Assembly (NCBI GenBank): GCA_016125375.1
Contig: WGLU01000002.1
Location: 211,227-275,226 of the forward strand
Source of the DNA: Pseudomonadota bacterium
GTDB lineage: Bacteria > Pseudomonadota > Alphaproteobacteria > UBA1280 > RI-95
DNA: 64,000 bases
Direction of reading: 5' to 3'
In this document: in pieces, positions 46,915-57,966 of the stretch
Position numbering within the stretch: the stretch's first letter is position 1
Layout: the number at the start of each line of letters is the position of its first letter
Notes under the pieces: model-generated
What the model saw: the letters and a program-made list of their open reading frames with translations, nothing else
What the model was told of the DNA's origin: nothing
Database searches by the model: none
Position numbers and translations under genes: made by a program

Positions 46915-47268
46915 GGGGACGTCACGGTTTCGACGGGATGTGAAAGCGATGAAGTGCATGCCGCTGGCGATGGCCCCGCGTTAAAAAACTGTCAAATCAT
47001 AGTCGCAAATAACGACTTCGAATACAAACTGGCTGCCTAATAACCAGCTAGGGCTCCGGAGCTCTCCCTTCCGGCGGGGACTTTAGGGCTTTTATTTAGT
47101 CGGAATATGGCAAAGTACGCCTCGGTACCGCGCTGAATTTTTTAAGAGGATCGCCTATGGCTTGTCTGTTACAGAGCCGGCTGTAGGTTAAATGACTCTG
47201 TAACTACGCATGTAGGACTTCACGTGCTAGCGTTTCGGACGCGGGTTCGACTCCCGCCGTCTCCACCA
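46915..47268 (+). ncRNA. ssrA: tmRNA, one-piece; tag reading frame GCA AAT AAC GAC TTC GAA TAC AAA CTG GCT GCC TAA (ANDFEYKLAA)
   Basis: 5' GGGGAC pairs with 3' GTCTCC-A-CCA; T-loop GGGTTCGACTCCC; tag ORF at 47005-47040. Confidence 0.95.
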
Positions 47269-47282
47269 TTTAGGAGTTTAAC
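47263..47282 (+). repeat. attL-like core repeat CCACCATTTAGGAGTTTAAC
   Basis: Identical to 57317-57336; includes the tmRNA CCA end. Confidence 0.92.
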
Positions 47283-47298
47283 TAAATCCGACAACATC

Positions 47299-47327
47299 CA
47301 AAAACCCTTGCATATGCGGGGCTTTTT
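47299..47327 (+). terminator. probable tmRNA terminator supplied by the element
   Basis: AAAACCC ttgcatatgc GGGGCTTTTT just inside the left att repeat. Confidence 0.5.
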
Positions 47328-47355
47328 GTTTATTTGTTGTCCAGCGCTATCCGAT

Positions 47356-47431
47356 GTTACCCGCAGTCACCTACACCAAGTTGCGGGTAACCATGCGGGT
47401 AACAGGCAAAGCTAAAAATGGAGTTACCCGC
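47356..47431. promoter_or_regulatory. cluster of four GCGGGTAAC sites (two per orientation), possible integrase arm sites
   Basis: GTTACCCGC at 47356-47364 and 47423-47431; GCGGGTAAC at 47383-47391 and 47395-47403. Confidence 0.65.
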
Positions 47432-48107
47432 AATGGGCACCAAAGGTGGATTATGCTGGATATGTAAAGCGAACAAAGCGACTAGCGGGGAACATGCCAT
47501 TAAAAAATCAGATATCAAATTAGCCTTCCCCGAGAAACAACGGCTTTATTTTCATACCGCTGAGAAAAAGAATATTTATATTCAAGGCTCTAACAGTGTT
47601 TGGCTAAAACCCCTAAAAATATGCCCTGACTGCAATAACAAGCGACTACAGCCATACGACAAAGCTTGGGATGCCTTCTCAAAAAATTGTTTAGACCAAC
47701 GCACCACAGAAACTCCTGCATCCCTCTGGAGAAAGCTGCCAACCAAAGCACAGCAGCAAATAAGGCTATTTTTACTAATTAAGCTAGGATGCATTACTAA
47801 AAGATTACAGCACGACAAGCTACGGGGTCACACATCTAACGTTAAGAACATTCTTGATCAAATGTCTAATGGAATACTTACAGAGAAACTTCCTCGCTCT
47901 TTCTATGCCGAATTTCTGCCGCCAGCCCCCGGCCTGCAAACCCCTAATTTGGAAGTGCTCAACAAAAAGAATACAAACATATGCATGGCGGTAGCCTCTG
48001 GATATAACTTGCCTTGGGTTTCTATAAAAGTAGCCTTTGCAGTACATACATCAGCAGGCCTTCTCAACTGGATGCAAACCGTCCACGTATCGGATTTAAG
48101 CTCATGA
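47418..48107 (+). CDS. HNH-endonuclease-like zinc-binding protein
   Basis: CWICKANKATSGEHAI...KICPDCNNKRLQ (CxxC...GEH...CxxCNN); start may be 47433. Confidence 0.6.
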   Translation: MELPAMGTKGGLCWICKANKATSGEHAIKKSDIKLAFPEKQRLYFHTAEKKNIYIQGSNSVWLKPLKICPDCNNKRLQPYDKAWDAFSKNCLDQRTTETPASLWRKLPTKAQQQIRLFLLIKLGCITKRLQHDKLRGHTSNVKNILDQMSNGILTEKLPRSFYAEFLPPAPGLQTPNLEVLNKKNTNICMAVASGYNLPWVSIKVAFAVHTSAGLLNWMQTVHVSDLSS

Positions 48108-49321
48108 AGCTCACCGCAACAACCATCAAAAACGCCAAGGCCACAGGTAAGCTACAAAAGCTGGCTGATGGCGGTGGTTTGTACCTTGAGGTTACGGCCA
48201 AAGGCAATAAGCGCTGGCGTTATCGGTATTACTTCCAAGGCAAAGAGCAACTTATCTCTCTGGGCATCTATCCTGATATTTCCCTTAAAGATGCGCGGGA
48301 GCGGCATGCCGCTATGCGCAGGCTGCTTGCGAATGACATTAACCCGAGTGACACCCGCAAGGCTGAAAAGGCCTCTCAAGCAGGGGCAGAAAGCTTTGAG
48401 GCCATTGCCCGCGAGTGGCACAACAAAAACCTGCATATGTGGACAGAGCGTCACGGGCAGGACATTTTGCGCCGCCTCGAGCTCAACATCTTCCCGTGGT
48501 TAGGTAAAAAGCCTATTAACGACATTACGCCACCCGCTCTGCTTGCCGTCCTCCGCCGTATGGAAGACCGAGGCGCAGTAGAAACCGCCCACCGTGTAAA
48601 AGCCTGCTGCGGGCAGGTGTTCCGCTACGCTATTGCCACAGGCCGTGCAGAGCGTGATGCAAGCCAAGACCTTAAAGGCGCAATCCCTCCTGTAAAGAAG
48701 AAGCACCTTGCCTCCATTACCGACCCCGTAAAAATTGGCGAACTTCTCCGTTCTATTGACGGGTACGAGGGTAGCTTTGTGGTTAAAAGTGCCCTGCGCC
48801 TTGCACCGCTTGTGTTTGTGCGCCCCAAAGAGCTGCGCTGCGCCGAATGGAGCGAGTTTGATTTTGATAAAGCCGAATGGCGCATCCCGGCCGAAAAGAT
48901 GAAAGCCCGTGTGCAACACATTGTGCCACTCTCCCGCCAGGCGATAGAGGTGCTGCAAGAGCTTTATCCACTCACAGGCCACGGCAAAGCGGCTAAATAT
49001 GTGTTCCCAAGCCCCCGCACCCTTAGCCGCCCGCTATCTGACAATGGGGTACTCTCCGCCCTGCGCCGCATGGGGTACGCCAAAGAAGAAATGACAGGCC
49101 ACGGCTTCCGCTCTATGGCCTCTACCCTCCTTAACGAACAAGGTTGGAACGCCGACGCTATTGAACGCCAACTTGCCCACGGCGAACGCAACACCGTCCG
49201 TGCCGCCTACAACTATGCCCAGTACATGGACGAACGCCGCGAAATGATGCAAGCCTGGGCAGATTATCTGGATGAGCTGCGGGCGGGTGGCAAAGTTATT
49301 ACAGCTAAGTTTGGTGGGTAG
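48104..49321 (+). CDS. int: P4-type tyrosine integrase with N-terminal arm-binding domain
   Basis: LADGGGLYLEVTAKGNKRWRYRYYFQGKEQLISLGIYPDISLKDAR; R-PKEL, HGFR, LAHGERNTVRAAYNYAQY. Confidence 0.95.
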   Translation: MKLTATTIKNAKATGKLQKLADGGGLYLEVTAKGNKRWRYRYYFQGKEQLISLGIYPDISLKDARERHAAMRRLLANDINPSDTRKAEKASQAGAESFEAIAREWHNKNLHMWTERHGQDILRRLELNIFPWLGKKPINDITPPALLAVLRRMEDRGAVETAHRVKACCGQVFRYAIATGRAERDASQDLKGAIPPVKKKHLASITDPVKIGELLRSIDGYEGSFVVKSALRLAPLVFVRPKELRCAEWSEFDFDKAEWRIPAEKMKARVQHIVPLSRQAIEVLQELYPLTGHGKAAKYVFPSPRTLSRPLSDNGVLSALRRMGYAKEEMTGHGFRSMASTLLNEQGWNADAIERQLAHGERNTVRAAYNYAQYMDERREMMQAWADYLDELRAGGKVITAKFGG

Positions 49322-49966: not shown

Positions 49967-50161
49967 ATGACTACATCCAATCATTCTGGCTTTTTGCGCC
50001 TACCAGACGTGCTAAAACTCATTCCCGTAAGTAAAAGCACGTGGTGGCAAGGCGTAAGGGACGGCAAATTCCCCAAGAGCTATAAACTAACGGAACGCAC
50101 CACAGCATGGCGTGTTGAAGACATTCAAAAACTCATGCAGGAGATGGCCGGACATGAGTAA
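49967..50161 (+). CDS. AlpA-family MerR-like DNA-binding regulator/excisionase
   Basis: FLRLPDVLKLIPVSKSTWWQGVRDGKFPKSYKLTERTTAWRVEDIQKLM. Confidence 0.88.
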   Translation: MTTSNHSGFLRLPDVLKLIPVSKSTWWQGVRDGKFPKSYKLTERTTAWRVEDIQKLMQEMAGHE

Positions 50162-51711: not shown

Positions 51712-51776
51712 CCCAGACAGCACAAAGGGCACAAGTTTCTTTTGCAGAAAACTACTAAATACCCTAATCTTTTCTG

Positions 51777-51990
51777 GCGGAATAGCTAAACACTTCCGCG
51801 GGGCTTGATAACCCCAAACACTAGGTGGCAGGCACCGCCATTAAAGGTGCCCTGTGTCTTTTGGCACAAACAGTTTCTCGGTTTTATGGCCGGGAGGCGG
51901 TGTCATGTCCAAGGTGCGTGCACCTAAAAGCACTGCGCCGTTCCTAGTGTACGGTTATCAACTCCCGGCTACCTTTCAAAGGTAGCCTTA
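51777..51990 (+). ncRNA. candidate structured RNA (or folded recombination site) downstream of second recombinase
   Basis: Long-range stems TTGATAAC/GTTATCAA and ACACTAGG/CCTAGTGT, internal hairpins, and terminal hairpin GGCTACCTTTcAAAGGTAGCC (51967-51987). Confidence 0.75.
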
Positions 51991-52019
51991 TGTTTTTAAC
52001 TTATGGGAGACCTGCACAT

Positions 52020-52364
52020 ATGGCATTACAAGATATTCTCGGGAAGTCTACTTACCAGTCACTCCCTCCTTTGGTCGTCGGCAAGCTAGAGCGACTGGAC
52101 GAGGAAGACCAAAACCTTTTCATGGCAACATACAAAGACAATCGAAAAAATTGGGTTGTTGCTTACCTATGCTGGATTTTCACTTTCCATTATTTGTATT
52201 TAGGCGGCACAAAATCTTTACTCACCCAAATCATTTTCTGGATAACATTTGGAGGTTTTGGTATCTGGTGGGTATTCGACTTTTTACGCTTACCGAGCGT
52301 GGTTAATCGTATCAATGGAGAGCTTGCTATTGGTATTATTCGCGATATACGGCAGCTCAGTTAA
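52020..52364 (+). CDS. TM2-domain membrane protein
   Basis: FHYLYLGGTKSLLTQIIFWITFGGFGIWWVFDFLRLP. Confidence 0.75.
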   Translation: MALQDILGKSTYQSLPPLVVGKLERLDEEDQNLFMATYKDNRKNWVVAYLCWIFTFHYLYLGGTKSLLTQIIFWITFGGFGIWWVFDFLRLPSVVNRINGELAIGIIRDIRQLS

Positions 52365-52429: not shown

Positions 52430-55309
52430 ATGCAGGTAGAACAATTTATTAGTAAATGGCGCAACGCCAGTTTAGGCGAACACCGTTCTGGTTCCGGGGC
52501 GGTGCAGCACTTCCTTGACCTGTGTGACCTGCTAGGCGTAGAAAAGCCCTCCGATGCTGATAATAAAGCTGAATGGTACTGCTTTGAGCGCGGAGCACGA
52601 AAAACCACAGGTAAGAGTGGTTGGGCAGATGTTTGGAAGCGCGGTCATTTCGGCTGGGAATATAAGGGTAATGGCAGCAATCTCGACAAGGCATTTGCAC
52701 AGCTTCAACAATATGCTGTTGCACTTGAGAACCCACCTTTACTTGTCGTTTCCGATATGGAACGCATCATCATACATACTAACTTCACCAATACAGTTTC
52801 ACAGGTGCATGAAATTGGGTTAGAGGATCTGCGCGATGCCCACAAACGTGATGTGCTGCTATGGGTTTTCACTGACCCTGACCGCCTCAAGCCAGATAAA
52901 ACCATTCAGGCTCTCACCGATGCAGCAGCTCAAAAATTTGCAGAATTAGCTTTGCGTATCCGTAACCGTGGCCACGAACCTGAACAAGTTGCCCACTTTA
53001 TCAATAGGCTAGCATTTTGTATGTTCGCGGAAGACGTCAACCTGCTACCTCGTCATTTTTTTACCGAACGCCTGTATAAACTAGTCAGTCATCCAGAGCG
53101 TATTGAGCCAGCCCTTAAAGCCCTTTTCAGTGCGATGGCGAAAGGCGGCATGTATGGCGATGAACCCATCGAGTGGTTTAATGGCGGCCTGTTTGATGAT
53201 AACGCCGTATTACCGCTCGAACGGGAAGATATCGCTCTGCTTTATGAAGCTGCCAAAATGGACTGGCAGGATATTGATCCCTCTATTTTTGGCACCTTAT
53301 TTGAGCGTGGTCTCGACCCTGAAAAGCGCAGCCAGTTAGGGGCACATTATACCGACGCTGAGAAAATTATGATGATTGTCGAACCTGTCATCATCCAACC
53401 GCTTTTACGTGAGTGGGAAGACACCCTCCAGGCTATTGAAAAAGAGTTTGAAAAAGAGAGTACTGCCAAAAGAGCCAAAGATAGGGCTGACGCAGCCAAA
53501 AGATCTTTTGCCAGGATGGAAAAACTACGCTCACAATTTTTAGTAAAACTGGAAAATTTCCAAGTTTTAGATCCTGCTTGTGGTTCCGGCAACTTTCTAT
53601 ATATAGCGCTCAAGGCACTAAAAGATATTGAACACCGAGTGTACCTTGAAAGCGAAGTTTATGGGCTACCAAAACCCGCCTTGATGCGCACAGGCCCCCA
53701 TAATATGCGCGGAATAGAGCTGAATAGCTACGCTGCTGAACTAGCCCGCATGACGGTATGGATTGGCGAAATTCAATGGTGCCTAAAGCACGGCTGGCAA
53801 ATCAATAAACAACCTATCCTCAAGCCGCTAAAAACAATTGAGAACCGAGATGCTCTCATCAGTGCCGACGGAAAAGAGGCCATTTGGCCTGCAGTGGATG
53901 TAATCATTGGTAACCCCCCTTTTCTGGGCAACAAAAAGATGATTGCCGAATTGGGTGAAGAATATACCAATGCCCTGCGAACCACCTATAAAGGCAGGCT
54001 TTCAAATAGCATCGACCTCGTTTGCTATTGGTTTGATAAGGCTGACCAGCTCATGCGTGAAAGTAAAGCACACAGGGTTGGGCTTGTGGCCACCAACAGC
54101 ATAAGCGGCGGTAAGAACCGTGATGTACTCAAGGTAATTTGCAAAGAACACCACATGTTTAATGTCTGGCGTGATGAGCCGTGGACAGTTGAAGGTGCGG
54201 CAGTACGAGTGGCTCTTGTGATGTTTGCCCAATGCAAGCTGGAAGACACCACAAGCCTTGATGGCGAAGCTGTAGAAGAGATTTTTTCTGACTTAACAGG
54301 CAATAATTCTGGTAAAGCCGACTTGTCCACGGCCAGACAACTGGAAAGCAACCTCAACCTAGCCTATCAGGGCACGATTAAAGGAGGGGCGTTTGATATT
54401 AGCTATGGACAGGCAAAAGAATGGCTTCAATTACCCTTAAACCCTAACGGTCAACCAAATTCTGGCGTAGTAAGACCGTGGGCCAACGGTATGGACGTAA
54501 CCCGCAGACCAGAAGGAAAACGGATTATTGACTTTGGCACAGATATGACGAAGGAAGATGCTTCTCTTTACGAGGCTCCCTATGCTTATGTCCTTGAACA
54601 TGTAGAGCCTATTCGCAGTAAGGTTCGTAGGGAGGGACATGCCAAGTATTGGTGGCGACATGGCGAGGCTCGACCCGGTATGCGTAATATGCTTGCACCT
54701 CTATCACGTTATCTTGCAACACCTCGCGTTGCAAAACATAGAATTTTTGTCTGGAAAGACCGCGCTGTGCTACCTGATAGCGCCTTAATAGCGATTGCCC
54801 GAGACGACGACACTACCTTTGGCATTTTACATAGCCGTTTTCACGAACTATGGTCACTGCGTATGTGTACTTATCTTGGCGTTGGCAATGACCCACGCTA
54901 CACACCCAGCACTACCTTTGAAACTTTCCCGTTCCCAGAAGGGCTAGAACCCAATAGGCCTGCAAGTAAATATGCCAATAACCCTCGCGCTCAAAAGATT
55001 GCACAGACTGCCCAAAGACTTAATGAACTGCGTGAAAACTGGCTCAACCCACCCGACCTGATAAAGCGTGAGCCGGAGGTTGTTGAGGGCTATCCTGACC
55101 GTCTCTTGCCAATTGATGACAGGGCGGCCACCATCTTGAAAAAACGTACGCTAACAAACCTGTACAATGAACGACCTACATGGCTGGCCAACGCACACCG
55201 CGCACTTGATGAGGCAGTTGCAGAAGCCTATGGCTGGAACGTAGACATGACCGATGATGAAGTTTTGGCTGCTTTGCTTGATTTGAACTTGAAAAGGTCT
55301 GATAAATAA
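52430..55309 (+). CDS. single-polypeptide type IIL (MmeI-like) restriction-modification enzyme
   Basis: D-X9-E-X-K nuclease motif (DVWKRGHFGWEYK), VLDPACGSGNFL SAM motif, IGNPPFLG N6-adenine MTase motif. Confidence 0.9.
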   Translation: MQVEQFISKWRNASLGEHRSGSGAVQHFLDLCDLLGVEKPSDADNKAEWYCFERGARKTTGKSGWADVWKRGHFGWEYKGNGSNLDKAFAQLQQYAVALENPPLLVVSDMERIIIHTNFTNTVSQVHEIGLEDLRDAHKRDVLLWVFTDPDRLKPDKTIQALTDAAAQKFAELALRIRNRGHEPEQVAHFINRLAFCMFAEDVNLLPRHFFTERLYKLVSHPERIEPALKALFSAMAKGGMYGDEPIEWFNGGLFDDNAVLPLEREDIALLYEAAKMDWQDIDPSIFGTLFERGLDPEKRSQLGAHYTDAEKIMMIVEPVIIQPLLREWEDTLQAIEKEFEKESTAKRAKDRADAAKRSFARMEKLRSQFLVKLENFQVLDPACGSGNFLYIALKALKDIEHRVYLESEVYGLPKPALMRTGPHNMRGIELNSYAAELARMTVWIGEIQWCLKHGWQINKQPILKPLKTIENRDALISADGKEAIWPAVDVIIGNPPFLGNKKMIAELGEEYTNALRTTYKGRLSNSIDLVCYWFDKADQLMRESKAHRVGLVATNSISGGKNRDVLKVICKEHHMFNVWRDEPWTVEGAAVRVALVMFAQCKLEDTTSLDGEAVEEIFSDLTGNNSGKADLSTARQLESNLNLAYQGTIKGGAFDISYGQAKEWLQLPLNPNGQPNSGVVRPWANGMDVTRRPEGKRIIDFGTDMTKEDASLYEAPYAYVLEHVEPIRSKVRREGHAKYWWRHGEARPGMRNMLAPLSRYLATPRVAKHRIFVWKDRAVLPDSALIAIARDDDTTFGILHSRFHELWSLRMCTYLGVGNDPRYTPSTTFETFPFPEGLEPNRPASKYANNPRAQKIAQTAQRLNELRENWLNPPDLIKREPEVVEGYPDRLLPIDDRAATILKKRTLTNLYNERPTWLANAHRALDEAVAEAYGWNVDMTDDEVLAALLDLNLKRSDK

Positions 55310-55391
55310 GGTTACAAGAGCACTACACACCCTAAGATTGTGTACTCTATATGAAACCGTTCCAGTAACCATTATAAAGTTGTCATTAATA

Positions 55392-56501
55392 ATGCAATTT
55401 AAAGAAACCCGCACAGCAGCACAAAAATACTGGCACGTCATACATCAACGATCCATTCAAAAACGGGAAGCTACCCGCCCAGAAAGATTAAAGCGCTTTA
55501 AAGCTGGGCAAAGTCGATATATTCCAGATCATCCTCACATTGATGTCTTAAAAGCCCCCGAGCTGTTAAGCCTAGATACAAATGGCATATCGAATACTCT
55601 CACCTTTTTGACAGAACTTAGGAAGCTGGTGTTTATAGATAGGGCAAAACATATTAGGCTTGACCTGTCTGCCTGCAAAGAAATTGATATCGCAGCCGCC
55701 CTCACCTTGACGGCAGAAATTGAACGGTGCTTAGCAAAGGCACCTGTAAGAATTCAAGGTAACTGCCCGCATCCAGATGCGGGAGATGCTTTTCTAACAC
55801 TAAGAGACTTGGGATATTTCTCCTATTTAGGCACAAAAAAAATTCCGGAATGGAAGAAAGAAGTCATACCCGCAGTAGAGGTATTGAGAATAGTATCCAG
55901 CACTCATGGAGATGGTGAGGCACTGGCTAAAGCAGGTCAAAAACTTATCCTAGGTAATGAACAACAGCAGAACCTATTCAGCAGATATGTTTACCGAGTA
56001 CTAACCGAAGCAGCCACCAATTCAGTGCGCCACGCTTACCTAGAAGGTCATGATCATTCTATGCCTTGGATAGATGGGAAATGGTGGATGACTGGCTTTA
56101 GGGACACCGTAAACAAACGGGTTGTCATGGTTTTCTACGACTTAGGCTTAGGAATTCCTCAAACACTTCCTATTAGATGGGAGAACTTTTGGAAAGATCT
56201 ATTGAACATAACGCCAAATGATGCGGAAGTAATCAAGCTCGCAATGGAGGTAAGAAGATCACGCACAGACATAGGCGGATATGGTTTAAATGACATGAAA
56301 AATGTTGTACAAGAACACTGTAAAGGTGGCGTACTGCAAATACTAAGTGGTAAAGGGTGTTACCAATATTCTAAAAGTGCCGAAGGTGAGTTTGAAGAGA
56401 CTAGTTCCTTACCTGGGCACATTGAAGGTACTCTAATTATATGGTACCTAGATAATTTTGAAGGCATGGAACATGAGCACAAAAGAGATAAGCGTCGCTG
56501 A
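55392..56501 (+). CDS. STAS-like plus GHKL (HATPase_c) protein
   Basis: LDLSACKEIDIAAALTLTAEIERCL (STAS-like); RVLTEAATNSVRHAY (N-box), FYDLGLGIP (G1), GGYGLNDMKNVV (G2). Confidence 0.8.
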   Translation: MQFKETRTAAQKYWHVIHQRSIQKREATRPERLKRFKAGQSRYIPDHPHIDVLKAPELLSLDTNGISNTLTFLTELRKLVFIDRAKHIRLDLSACKEIDIAAALTLTAEIERCLAKAPVRIQGNCPHPDAGDAFLTLRDLGYFSYLGTKKIPEWKKEVIPAVEVLRIVSSTHGDGEALAKAGQKLILGNEQQQNLFSRYVYRVLTEAATNSVRHAYLEGHDHSMPWIDGKWWMTGFRDTVNKRVVMVFYDLGLGIPQTLPIRWENFWKDLLNITPNDAEVIKLAMEVRRSRTDIGGYGLNDMKNVVQEHCKGGVLQILSGKGCYQYSKSAEGEFEETSSLPGHIEGTLIIWYLDNFEGMEHEHKRDKRR

Positions 56502-56787
56502 GGACTTTTCTAGATATCCCATTGGCCGCACCAGAGAGGAGAGTGCGTATTGCGGTGATGTCTTCCGTGAACGACACTTAGTTCCTGCATTTAAAAATGC
56601 ACAAACAGTACACGTCAATTTAGATGGAACTGCTGGGTATGGCTCTTCATTCTTGGATCAAGCCTTTGGAGGACTTGTAAGATATGAAGGTTATACAGCC
56701 GACGAACTCCATCAACGTCTTAAGTTAACCTCAAATGATGATGAGTCCCTTATTGCTGAGACTTGGGGATACATAAATGACGCTTAG
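56473..56787 (+). CDS. STAS-like DUF4325-type protein
   Basis: YPIGRTREESAYCGDVFRERHLVPAF...VHVNLDGTAGYGSSFLDQAFGGLVR; overlaps upstream gene by 29 nt. Confidence 0.78.
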   Translation: MSTKEISVAEDFSRYPIGRTREESAYCGDVFRERHLVPAFKNAQTVHVNLDGTAGYGSSFLDQAFGGLVRYEGYTADELHQRLKLTSNDDESLIAETWGYINDA

Positions 56788-57223
56788 CGCTGTTGTCGAA
56801 ACTATATTATGGCCATTATGCTCGGGTATTATTTCATGGCTTGTGGCGCACTACGTCGCCAACAAACGTATAAATGATGCCCGGCTTTGGGACTTAATTC
56901 AACGAGCAGAAAGCCAAGTTGATATAATAGATCTTAAAGCATGCGCTTATTGGGAGGCTGGTCATTGCCCATCAGCTTCTCAGTACAGTCGCGAGCTTCA
57001 AGTGATGCTCAGGGATCTGGCTAGCATGATCAATAAAGTAAAGAACCTTTGCCCCAAACAGAAAGAAGCTCTGTTAAATCGAATGACCGCTTTTAGAAAG
57101 TCTGTTACTCTCGACTTTGAAAACACTAAAAGATCCAAACTTCCCTCAAATGCCCCTAAATTGAAAGATATATCTGAGGAAGCAACCGCTCTCAGAGAAC
57201 TTTTAAGTGACTTAGCGCCCTAA
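56777..57223 (+). CDS. N-terminally membrane-anchored protein, third gene of the STAS/GHKL operon
   Basis: VVETILWPLCSGIISWLVAHYVANKR TM segment, then Cys-containing helical region; overlaps upstream gene by 11 nt. Confidence 0.65.
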   Translation: MTLSAVVETILWPLCSGIISWLVAHYVANKRINDARLWDLIQRAESQVDIIDLKACAYWEAGHCPSASQYSRELQVMLRDLASMINKVKNLCPKQKEALLNRMTAFRKSVTLDFENTKRSKLPSNAPKLKDISEEATALRELLSDLAP

Positions 57224-57351: not shown

Positions 57352-57966
57352 ATGTCTTTCAAAGTGTCAAACCAAGAGCCTTCTGAACACCCCCCATACA
57401 TCTTTAAGAGCCCTCTACTAACAGTACATGGCGTGCTCATATTGGCATGCATTTGGAATATCCTAGACTCTGACACACCCTCAGCTTGGGTCTTTTGTTC
57501 AGTATTCATTTTTCTATTCGGATTTTTAACGGAATATCTAAGTTTGTTATGGGACACTTGTGCGGAACATCAGCCACGCTTAGCTGAAAAAGCAACGCAC
57601 ATTCTGGAAGAAAATGACCCGAATGAGTCGGTAGTCCTGAGGTTTATTATCAAACACAGGAGCAACCCAATAATACATGCCACTTTCACGCCATCACCTA
57701 GAAGAGTGGAGGTTTTTGTACTCCTATCAATGTTTTTCAGCATTATTTCAGGTACGGCCTTATGTCTGGGCATAGTATTTCTTGTAATGGCTGCTGCCTC
57801 AAAACTCATGGGGATCTGGAGCATCATTATTCTAGCGCTTCTTGTGCTCGCACTCTACGCCTTGTGGAAGGACATACGGAATGAGCTCGTAAGCACCCCA
57901 GAGACGCTGGAAATTATTGAGAAAACAGTCCCAAAGAAGCTGAAAAGAGGGAAAATATCTAATTAG
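57352..57966 (+). CDS. multi-pass membrane protein, uncharacterised
   Basis: 204-aa ORF with four hydrophobic segments, just outside attR. Confidence 0.6.
   Translation: MSFKVSNQEPSEHPPYIFKSPLLTVHGVLILACIWNILDSDTPSAWVFCSVFIFLFGFLTEYLSLLWDTCAEHQPRLAEKATHILEENDPNESVVLRFIIKHRSNPIIHATFTPSPRRVEVFVLLSMFFSIISGTALCLGIVFLVMAAASKLMGIWSIIILALLVLALYALWKDIRNELVSTPETLEIIEKTVPKKLKRGKISN

Follow-up and report, generated by a model that had tools for sequence, protein, structure and literature searches.

A leader RNA in an island of an alphaproteobacterium is a divergent member of a family of C4-like antisense RNA loci that includes sRNA-Xcc1

The C4 RNA is an antisense RNA of phages whose 5' end arises from RNase P processing of a precursor. 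In the P1 record, a and b boxes are annotated on both sides of C4, and the downstream pair represses translation of icd-ant. The RNA immunity of phage P4 depends on the CI RNA, a leader-derived RNA that pairs with the repeats of its own leader and acts via transcription termination. sRNA-Xcc1 was discovered by cDNA cloning; it is a stable small RNA of 88 nt that gave a signal of about 100 nt in Northern blots (PMC2996969), and it was proposed to be a trans-acting sRNA on host mRNAs in plant pathogens. Together with symE it is the most widespread integron cassette of Xanthomonas, located upstream of symE and in an orientation opposite to that of most cassettes (PMC12444791). Seven copies are known from Xylella, of which five form a cluster; in the open-licence literature searched, this is the one paper that names both sRNA-Xcc1 and C4 antisense, and it gives them as separate annotations (PMC12189769). 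In EHEC, sRNA-Xcc1 is transcribed and has few ribosome footprints (PMC5331693). An earlier link between sRNA-Xcc1 and C4 was not found in the open-licence literature, and one may exist outside that scope.

Here, we describe a structured element in a stretch of 64,000 nucleotides (the window) from an alphaproteobacterium. Its parts and the genes behind it are listed in Table 1. With the Rfam gathering cut-offs, the tmRNA was the sole match in the window. Below the cut-offs, the whole 87-nt model of sRNA-Xcc1 (RF02221) matched 51888-51978 with 27.8 bits (E 0.009; cut-off 53 bits) and c4-a1b1 (RF03163) gave a weak match at 51764-51819 with 21.5 bits (E 0.003) and 30.2 bits in one relative. The C4 model (RF01695) had no match in the window. 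A match to a known Rfam family, which would have spoken against the original prediction, was seen only in part: no gathering cut-off was reached, and sRNA-Xcc1 is related to the 3' half below the threshold. A scan for a consensus promoter of the element found none.

Table 1 Parts of the element and genes behind it (window positions).
Feature	Position	Strand	Remarks
5' hairpin P0 (GCGGAA/TTCCGC)	51777-51799	+	Presumed transcript start; hairpin here in most homologues, by eye
GGGG/CCCC hairpin with target box a in its loop	51800-51815	+	TTGATAACC (51805-51813) pairs with a' (51953-51961); covariation
Target box b (ACACTAGG)	51818-51825	+	Pairs with b' (51943-51950)
Small GGC/GCC hairpin with pseudoknot	51827-51851	+	Loop GGCACC (51831-51836) with GGTGCC (51846-51851); homologues by eye
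Closing stem of the antisense RNA, 5' strand (GCCGGGAG)	51889-51896	+	First positions of the sRNA-Xcc1 model
Antisense RNA, first hairpin (GCGGTG/CACTGC, AGGTG/CACCT)	51897-51936	+	Covariation
Second hairpin, stem GCCGT/ACGGT, box b' in the loop (51942-51950)	51937-51955	+	Covariation
Antisense box a' (GGTTATCAA)	51953-51961	+	Covariation, helix parsing
Closing stem, 3' strand (CTCCCGGC)	51962-51969	+	Final 3 nt common to the terminator
Intrinsic terminator GGCTACCTT-TCA-AAGGTAGCC, then TTATGTTTTT	51967-51997	+	Overlaps the closing stem
Shine-Dalgarno sequence GGGAG of the downstream gene	52005-52009	+	Without a copy of box a or b
Downstream gene, 114-aa protein with TM2 domain	52020-52364	+	
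Type IIG restriction enzyme-methyltransferase (MmeI-like)	52430-55309		Directly behind the TM2 gene

The segment 51800-51966 folds with -79.8 kcal/mol, compared to -53.6 +/- 3.8 kcal/mol for shuffled sequences (z -6.93; 0 of 200 shuffles reach this value), and the plus strand (z -7.0) folds better than the minus strand (z -4.8). Both long-range helices are located where the original prediction had put them from the sequence: helix a/a' has 9 bp, helix b/b' has 8 bp (ACACTAGG with CCTAGTGT), and GGGG at 51800-51803 pairs with TCCC at 51963-51966. The GCGGAA/TTCCGC hairpin that it had named is indeed present (51777-51782/51794-51799), as is the terminator after the element (51967-51987), and its argument that two long helices are unlikely to arise by chance agrees with the z score and with the covariation in homologues described below. 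Two of its smaller hairpins had to be revised. The pairing of CAGGCACC and GGTGCC is better read as a pseudoknot in which the loop of the small GGC/GCC hairpin pairs downstream, because the same pattern is seen again in the homologues by eye. The sequence of the CCGGGA-type hairpin exists, but CCGGGAG has an additional, strongly covarying partner, the 3' strand of the closing stem, that was overlooked.

A search of 60 relatives yielded four loci in three other genomes, which precede unrelated genes. Inspection by eye revealed that both helices had changed on both sides: TTGATAACC/GGTTATCAA of helix a/a' in the window is TTCATAACC/GGTTATGAA, TTACAAACC/GGTTTGTAA or TTATAAACC/GGTTTATAA elsewhere, and ACACTAGG/CCTAGTGT of helix b/b' is CAACAAA/TTTGTTG, CAAAGAG/CTCTTTG or CCACAGA/TCTGTGG. 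The sRNA-Xcc1 family is widespread: the search with it was positive for 57 of the 387 genomes of the class, many of them with several copies, and full-length relatives reach up to 70 bits. The genome of the window has a second copy with 51.7 bits (L006, 1428-1600) that lies between recF-like and dnaN-like genes, ahead of a possible 40-aa membrane peptide. BLAST of the window element against plasmids and phages gave no match. The aligned full-length relatives share one plan. The 5' part starts with a hairpin, continues with box a, presented by a GGGG/CCCC loop, and ends with box b and a middle part. In the 3' module, the closing stem encloses the first hairpin with a well-conserved asymmetric loop, the second hairpin with b' in its loop, and then a'. 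The accepted members of sRNA-Xcc1 and the window element are held by one alignment and one covariance model and have this architecture in common. By computation, the element belongs, as a divergent locus of full length, to a family of C4-like antisense RNA loci whose 3' part is sRNA-Xcc1.

The pairing is maintained in the family. In 38 sequences of the antisense module, 88.2% of the pairs are standard pairs, 17 of the 20 pairs have changed on both sides and the observed covariation score was not reached by any of 500 shuffles. For helix a/a', the closing stem and the first stem, taken together in 23 class I sequences (see below), 94.2% are paired and again 0/500 shuffles attain the score; the stem closing the b' loop covaries as well. 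Helix b/b' and also helix a/a' were counted by helix parsing with cross-locus controls; for b/b' this was done because the variable length of the box defeats column-wise counting. In class I, all elements (35/35) have a score of 6 or more for helix b/b', compared to 19% of the cross-locus pairs, and the same holds for helix a/a' (35/35, compared to 12%). The proposal to look for covariation of the two long helices in homologues was therefore answered in the positive: both covary and each is kept in all 35 relatives. Since this covariation is strong, the element is a functional structure and not a product of chance.

Helix a/a' and the closing stem compete with each other: the 3' strand of the latter is also a possible partner of the GGGG of box a, and helix a/a' has GG in common with the stem below the b' loop. 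The element therefore has two mutually exclusive folds, and both are conserved.

The element is inside an island that is integrated at the tmRNA gene. The tmRNA gene and the tyrosine integrase gene behind it (48014-49321) occupy 46915-49321, and 49967-50161 encodes an AlpA-like regulator. The final 12 bases of the tmRNA gene are not repeated exactly at any other place in the window. The original prediction had suggested a structured RNA or a folded DNA, the latter as an attC-like single-strand site for the neighbouring recombinase. The location directly after a tyrosine recombinase gene and a hairpin with unpaired bulges are in line with a DNA site, but the homologues stand ahead of ant, HTH, TM2, methylase and many more genes, mostly with no recombinase nearby. 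Moreover, the end of every relative is formed by a terminator or a ribosome-binding site, with unrelated genes behind it, a placement that obeys the logic of an RNA, and attC boxes were already reported missing in the original prediction. We consider the attC reading extremely improbable and rejected it on gene context, the second recombinase being an incidental neighbour; the structured RNA is borne out by homologues and covariation.

We take the element to be the leader of the TM2-domain gene; the type IIG restriction-modification gene behind it probably, or at least possibly, has the same leader RNA. Three further genes (55338-56501, 56777-57223 and 57352-57966) stand behind the restriction-modification gene; PADLOC had no match for any of the three proteins and Pfam none for the first two.

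Comparison of the family members revealed two classes. In class II, the phage type, a terminator-like hairpin separates box b from the antisense module, and many members have a second a/b pair downstream, over the Shine-Dalgarno sequence of the gene. The window element belongs to class I, in which a pseudoknotted hairpin is found at this position; a search of the window and of class I for a downstream a/b copy was negative. Directly behind the closing stem, 37 of the 39 class I elements have an intrinsic terminator, compared to 0 of 13 class II elements. This terminator overlaps the closing stem in class I, with three bases shared in the window.

Class II also informs on the function of the boxes. 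In E. coli O157 EDL933 the RNA is directly upstream of the antirepressor gene ant; it is present in 376 of 5,426 complete E. coli genomes and also in Stx phages. Among the alleles of Stx phages and prophages, the upstream box, the box at the Shine-Dalgarno sequence of ant and b' change together, which gives five allele groups (in this order): CAAATAAG/CAAATAAGGAGG/CTTATTTG, CTTACAAG/CTTACAAGGAGG/CTTGTAAG, CTTCAAAG/CTTCAAAGGAGG/CTTTGAAG, CACATATG/CACATATGGAGG/CATATGTG and CGTCAG/CGTCAGGAG/CTGACG. In the a boxes, a one-base indel is common to all three copies. This triple co-change is the signature of antisense pairing directed at the ribosome-binding site. Vibrio phage VHML has the same plan as the E. 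coli ant elements, and ant, KilA-N, Rha or Bro-N genes lie behind some of the sister elements. The allele groups of the Stx phage RNA ahead of ant (L037, 4450-5208; L104) look like different immunity types. The miRNA-size phage RNA 24B_1, reported as a regulator of an antirepressor gene, was set aside, as it is reported to lie in the lom-vb_24B_43 region.

The genome collection supplied 54 distinct loci that were left out of model building. The complementarity of the antisense boxes to their own upstream region is within the top tenth of cross-locus controls in 26 of these loci (p ~1e-12) and that to their own downstream region in 19 (p ~6e-7), the p-values being optimistic due to kinship among the loci. 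The downstream-box complementarity of 27 further loci agrees. These data bear on the function proposed for sRNA-Xcc1, an independent trans-acting sRNA aimed at host mRNAs. Rfam types the family as sRNA, and sRNA-Xcc1 is a stable small RNA (PMC2996969), but the boxes differ quickly between copies and match their own leader, in class II often also their own downstream gene, and a fixed seed for host targets is absent. We regard a host-targeting RNA as quite improbable.

In genome G294 (1.6 Mb, fragmented), about 39 matches were counted, part of them weak. In 24 copies compared, the closing stem is identical (24/24), but a' occurs in 15 forms and b' in 18, and there are 23 distinct a/b combinations. 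Boxes a and b match their own a' and b' in nearly all copies; in L082 and L086 the 5' and 3' halves do not fully match, and these are perhaps recombinants or assembly errors. Many copies (L064-L092) are ahead of small HTH regulators or 46-aa proteins. Seven loci have mainly the RNA in common, at times also a small gene or a short repeat, and their other surroundings differ. The simplest reading, if perhaps not the sole one, is that the diversity of a and b reflects selection against cross-reaction.

The main alternative is an attenuator or riboswitch that works only in cis: the a/b helices would be mere structure, and a ligand or protein would select between closing stem and terminator. It is made possible by the energetics, since the fold with a and b paired in cis plus the terminator is strongly favoured (-103.1 kcal/mol compared to -72.8 kcal/mol for the fold with a free module, pseudoknots ignored). 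A terminator of its own that overlaps the closing stem in class I, very different downstream genes and the well-conserved asymmetric loop of the first hairpin would also suit it. In G294, however, a and b are hypervariable and the closing stem and other helices nearly constant; were the a/b helices mere scaffolding, the others would be expected to change equally fast, and specificity in trans is likely in class I as well. In addition, b' is displayed in a loop by a covarying stem of its own, which is needless for a helix formed only in cis, and in sister elements these boxes serve as antisense to the Shine-Dalgarno sequence. An attenuator acting only in cis is thus unlikely.

We favour the view that the element is a self-specific, C4-like antisense RNA that acts through termination, with a probability of roughly 0.7. 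The transcript would first expose the target boxes a and b. The antisense module (51889-51969) would be made next, with b' in a hairpin loop and a' single-stranded, and a' and b' could then pair with a and b, either in cis, which yields the long helices, or in trans if another transcript has the same specificity. The antisense RNA of class II should block translation at the Shine-Dalgarno sequence, as C4 does. The window is without a downstream a/b copy, and the translation block of C4 is therefore not applicable as it stands. Because the class I terminator shares bases with the closing stem, we propose a control of read-through into the TM2 gene, and perhaps also into the type IIG gene. Pairing of a and b would decide between the terminator and the full closing stem: formation of the terminator would release a small RNA and leave the gene off, and the full closing stem would weaken the terminator and allow read-through. 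Expression would thereby be sensitive to other copies with the same boxes, provided that the copy in the window is processed and acts in trans as we infer.

More tentatively, class I as a whole might be a large family of self-contained cassettes of RNA plus small gene, with combinable a/b boxes as specificity codes, in which each copy recognises only itself, dozens coexist in one small genome (some 39 in 1.6 Mb) and regulation of the own gene is by transcription termination and not by translation. A description of this terminator-based variant was not found in the open-licence literature. The roughly 39 natural variants of a single RNA switch in G294, which differ in their codes, are a ready-made test case for the diversification of RNA specificity and might supply regulators that do not interfere with each other.

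How does the element compare with the known RNAs? The Rfam model of sRNA-Xcc1 covers only the 3' half, typed as a free sRNA, and the a/b boxes and the upstream pseudoknots are outside the model. A poorly understood family that was discussed as a virulence RNA is now tied to C4-type antisense control in phages, with support at the level of alleles from the E. coli Stx phages, and an RNA so far classed as a virulence RNA of plant pathogens thereby joins a large family of switches that act on mobile genes and are probably self-specific. The covariance model of the window's family did not detect P1 C4; since neither model detects the other, the relation to C4 rests on architecture. As in the window's family, P1 C4 folds into a closing stem and two hairpins with one box in a loop and one single-stranded. 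In P1/P7 C4 and in the window, b' is in the second loop and a' is single-stranded, the target boxes a and b are upstream behind a 5' hairpin and a gene of a mobile element follows. Class II is also like C4 in having a second a/b pair downstream and, in phages, ant as the target gene. Several features set the window element apart from C4: a downstream a/b pair is missing, the closing stem is followed by an intrinsic terminator, the hairpin that separates box b from the antisense RNA is pseudoknotted and not terminator-like, and the gene downstream encodes a TM2-domain protein and not a phage antirepressor. By analogy, the element would work like C4, and common descent is plausible. The mode proposed for class I resembles that of the CI RNA of phage P4.
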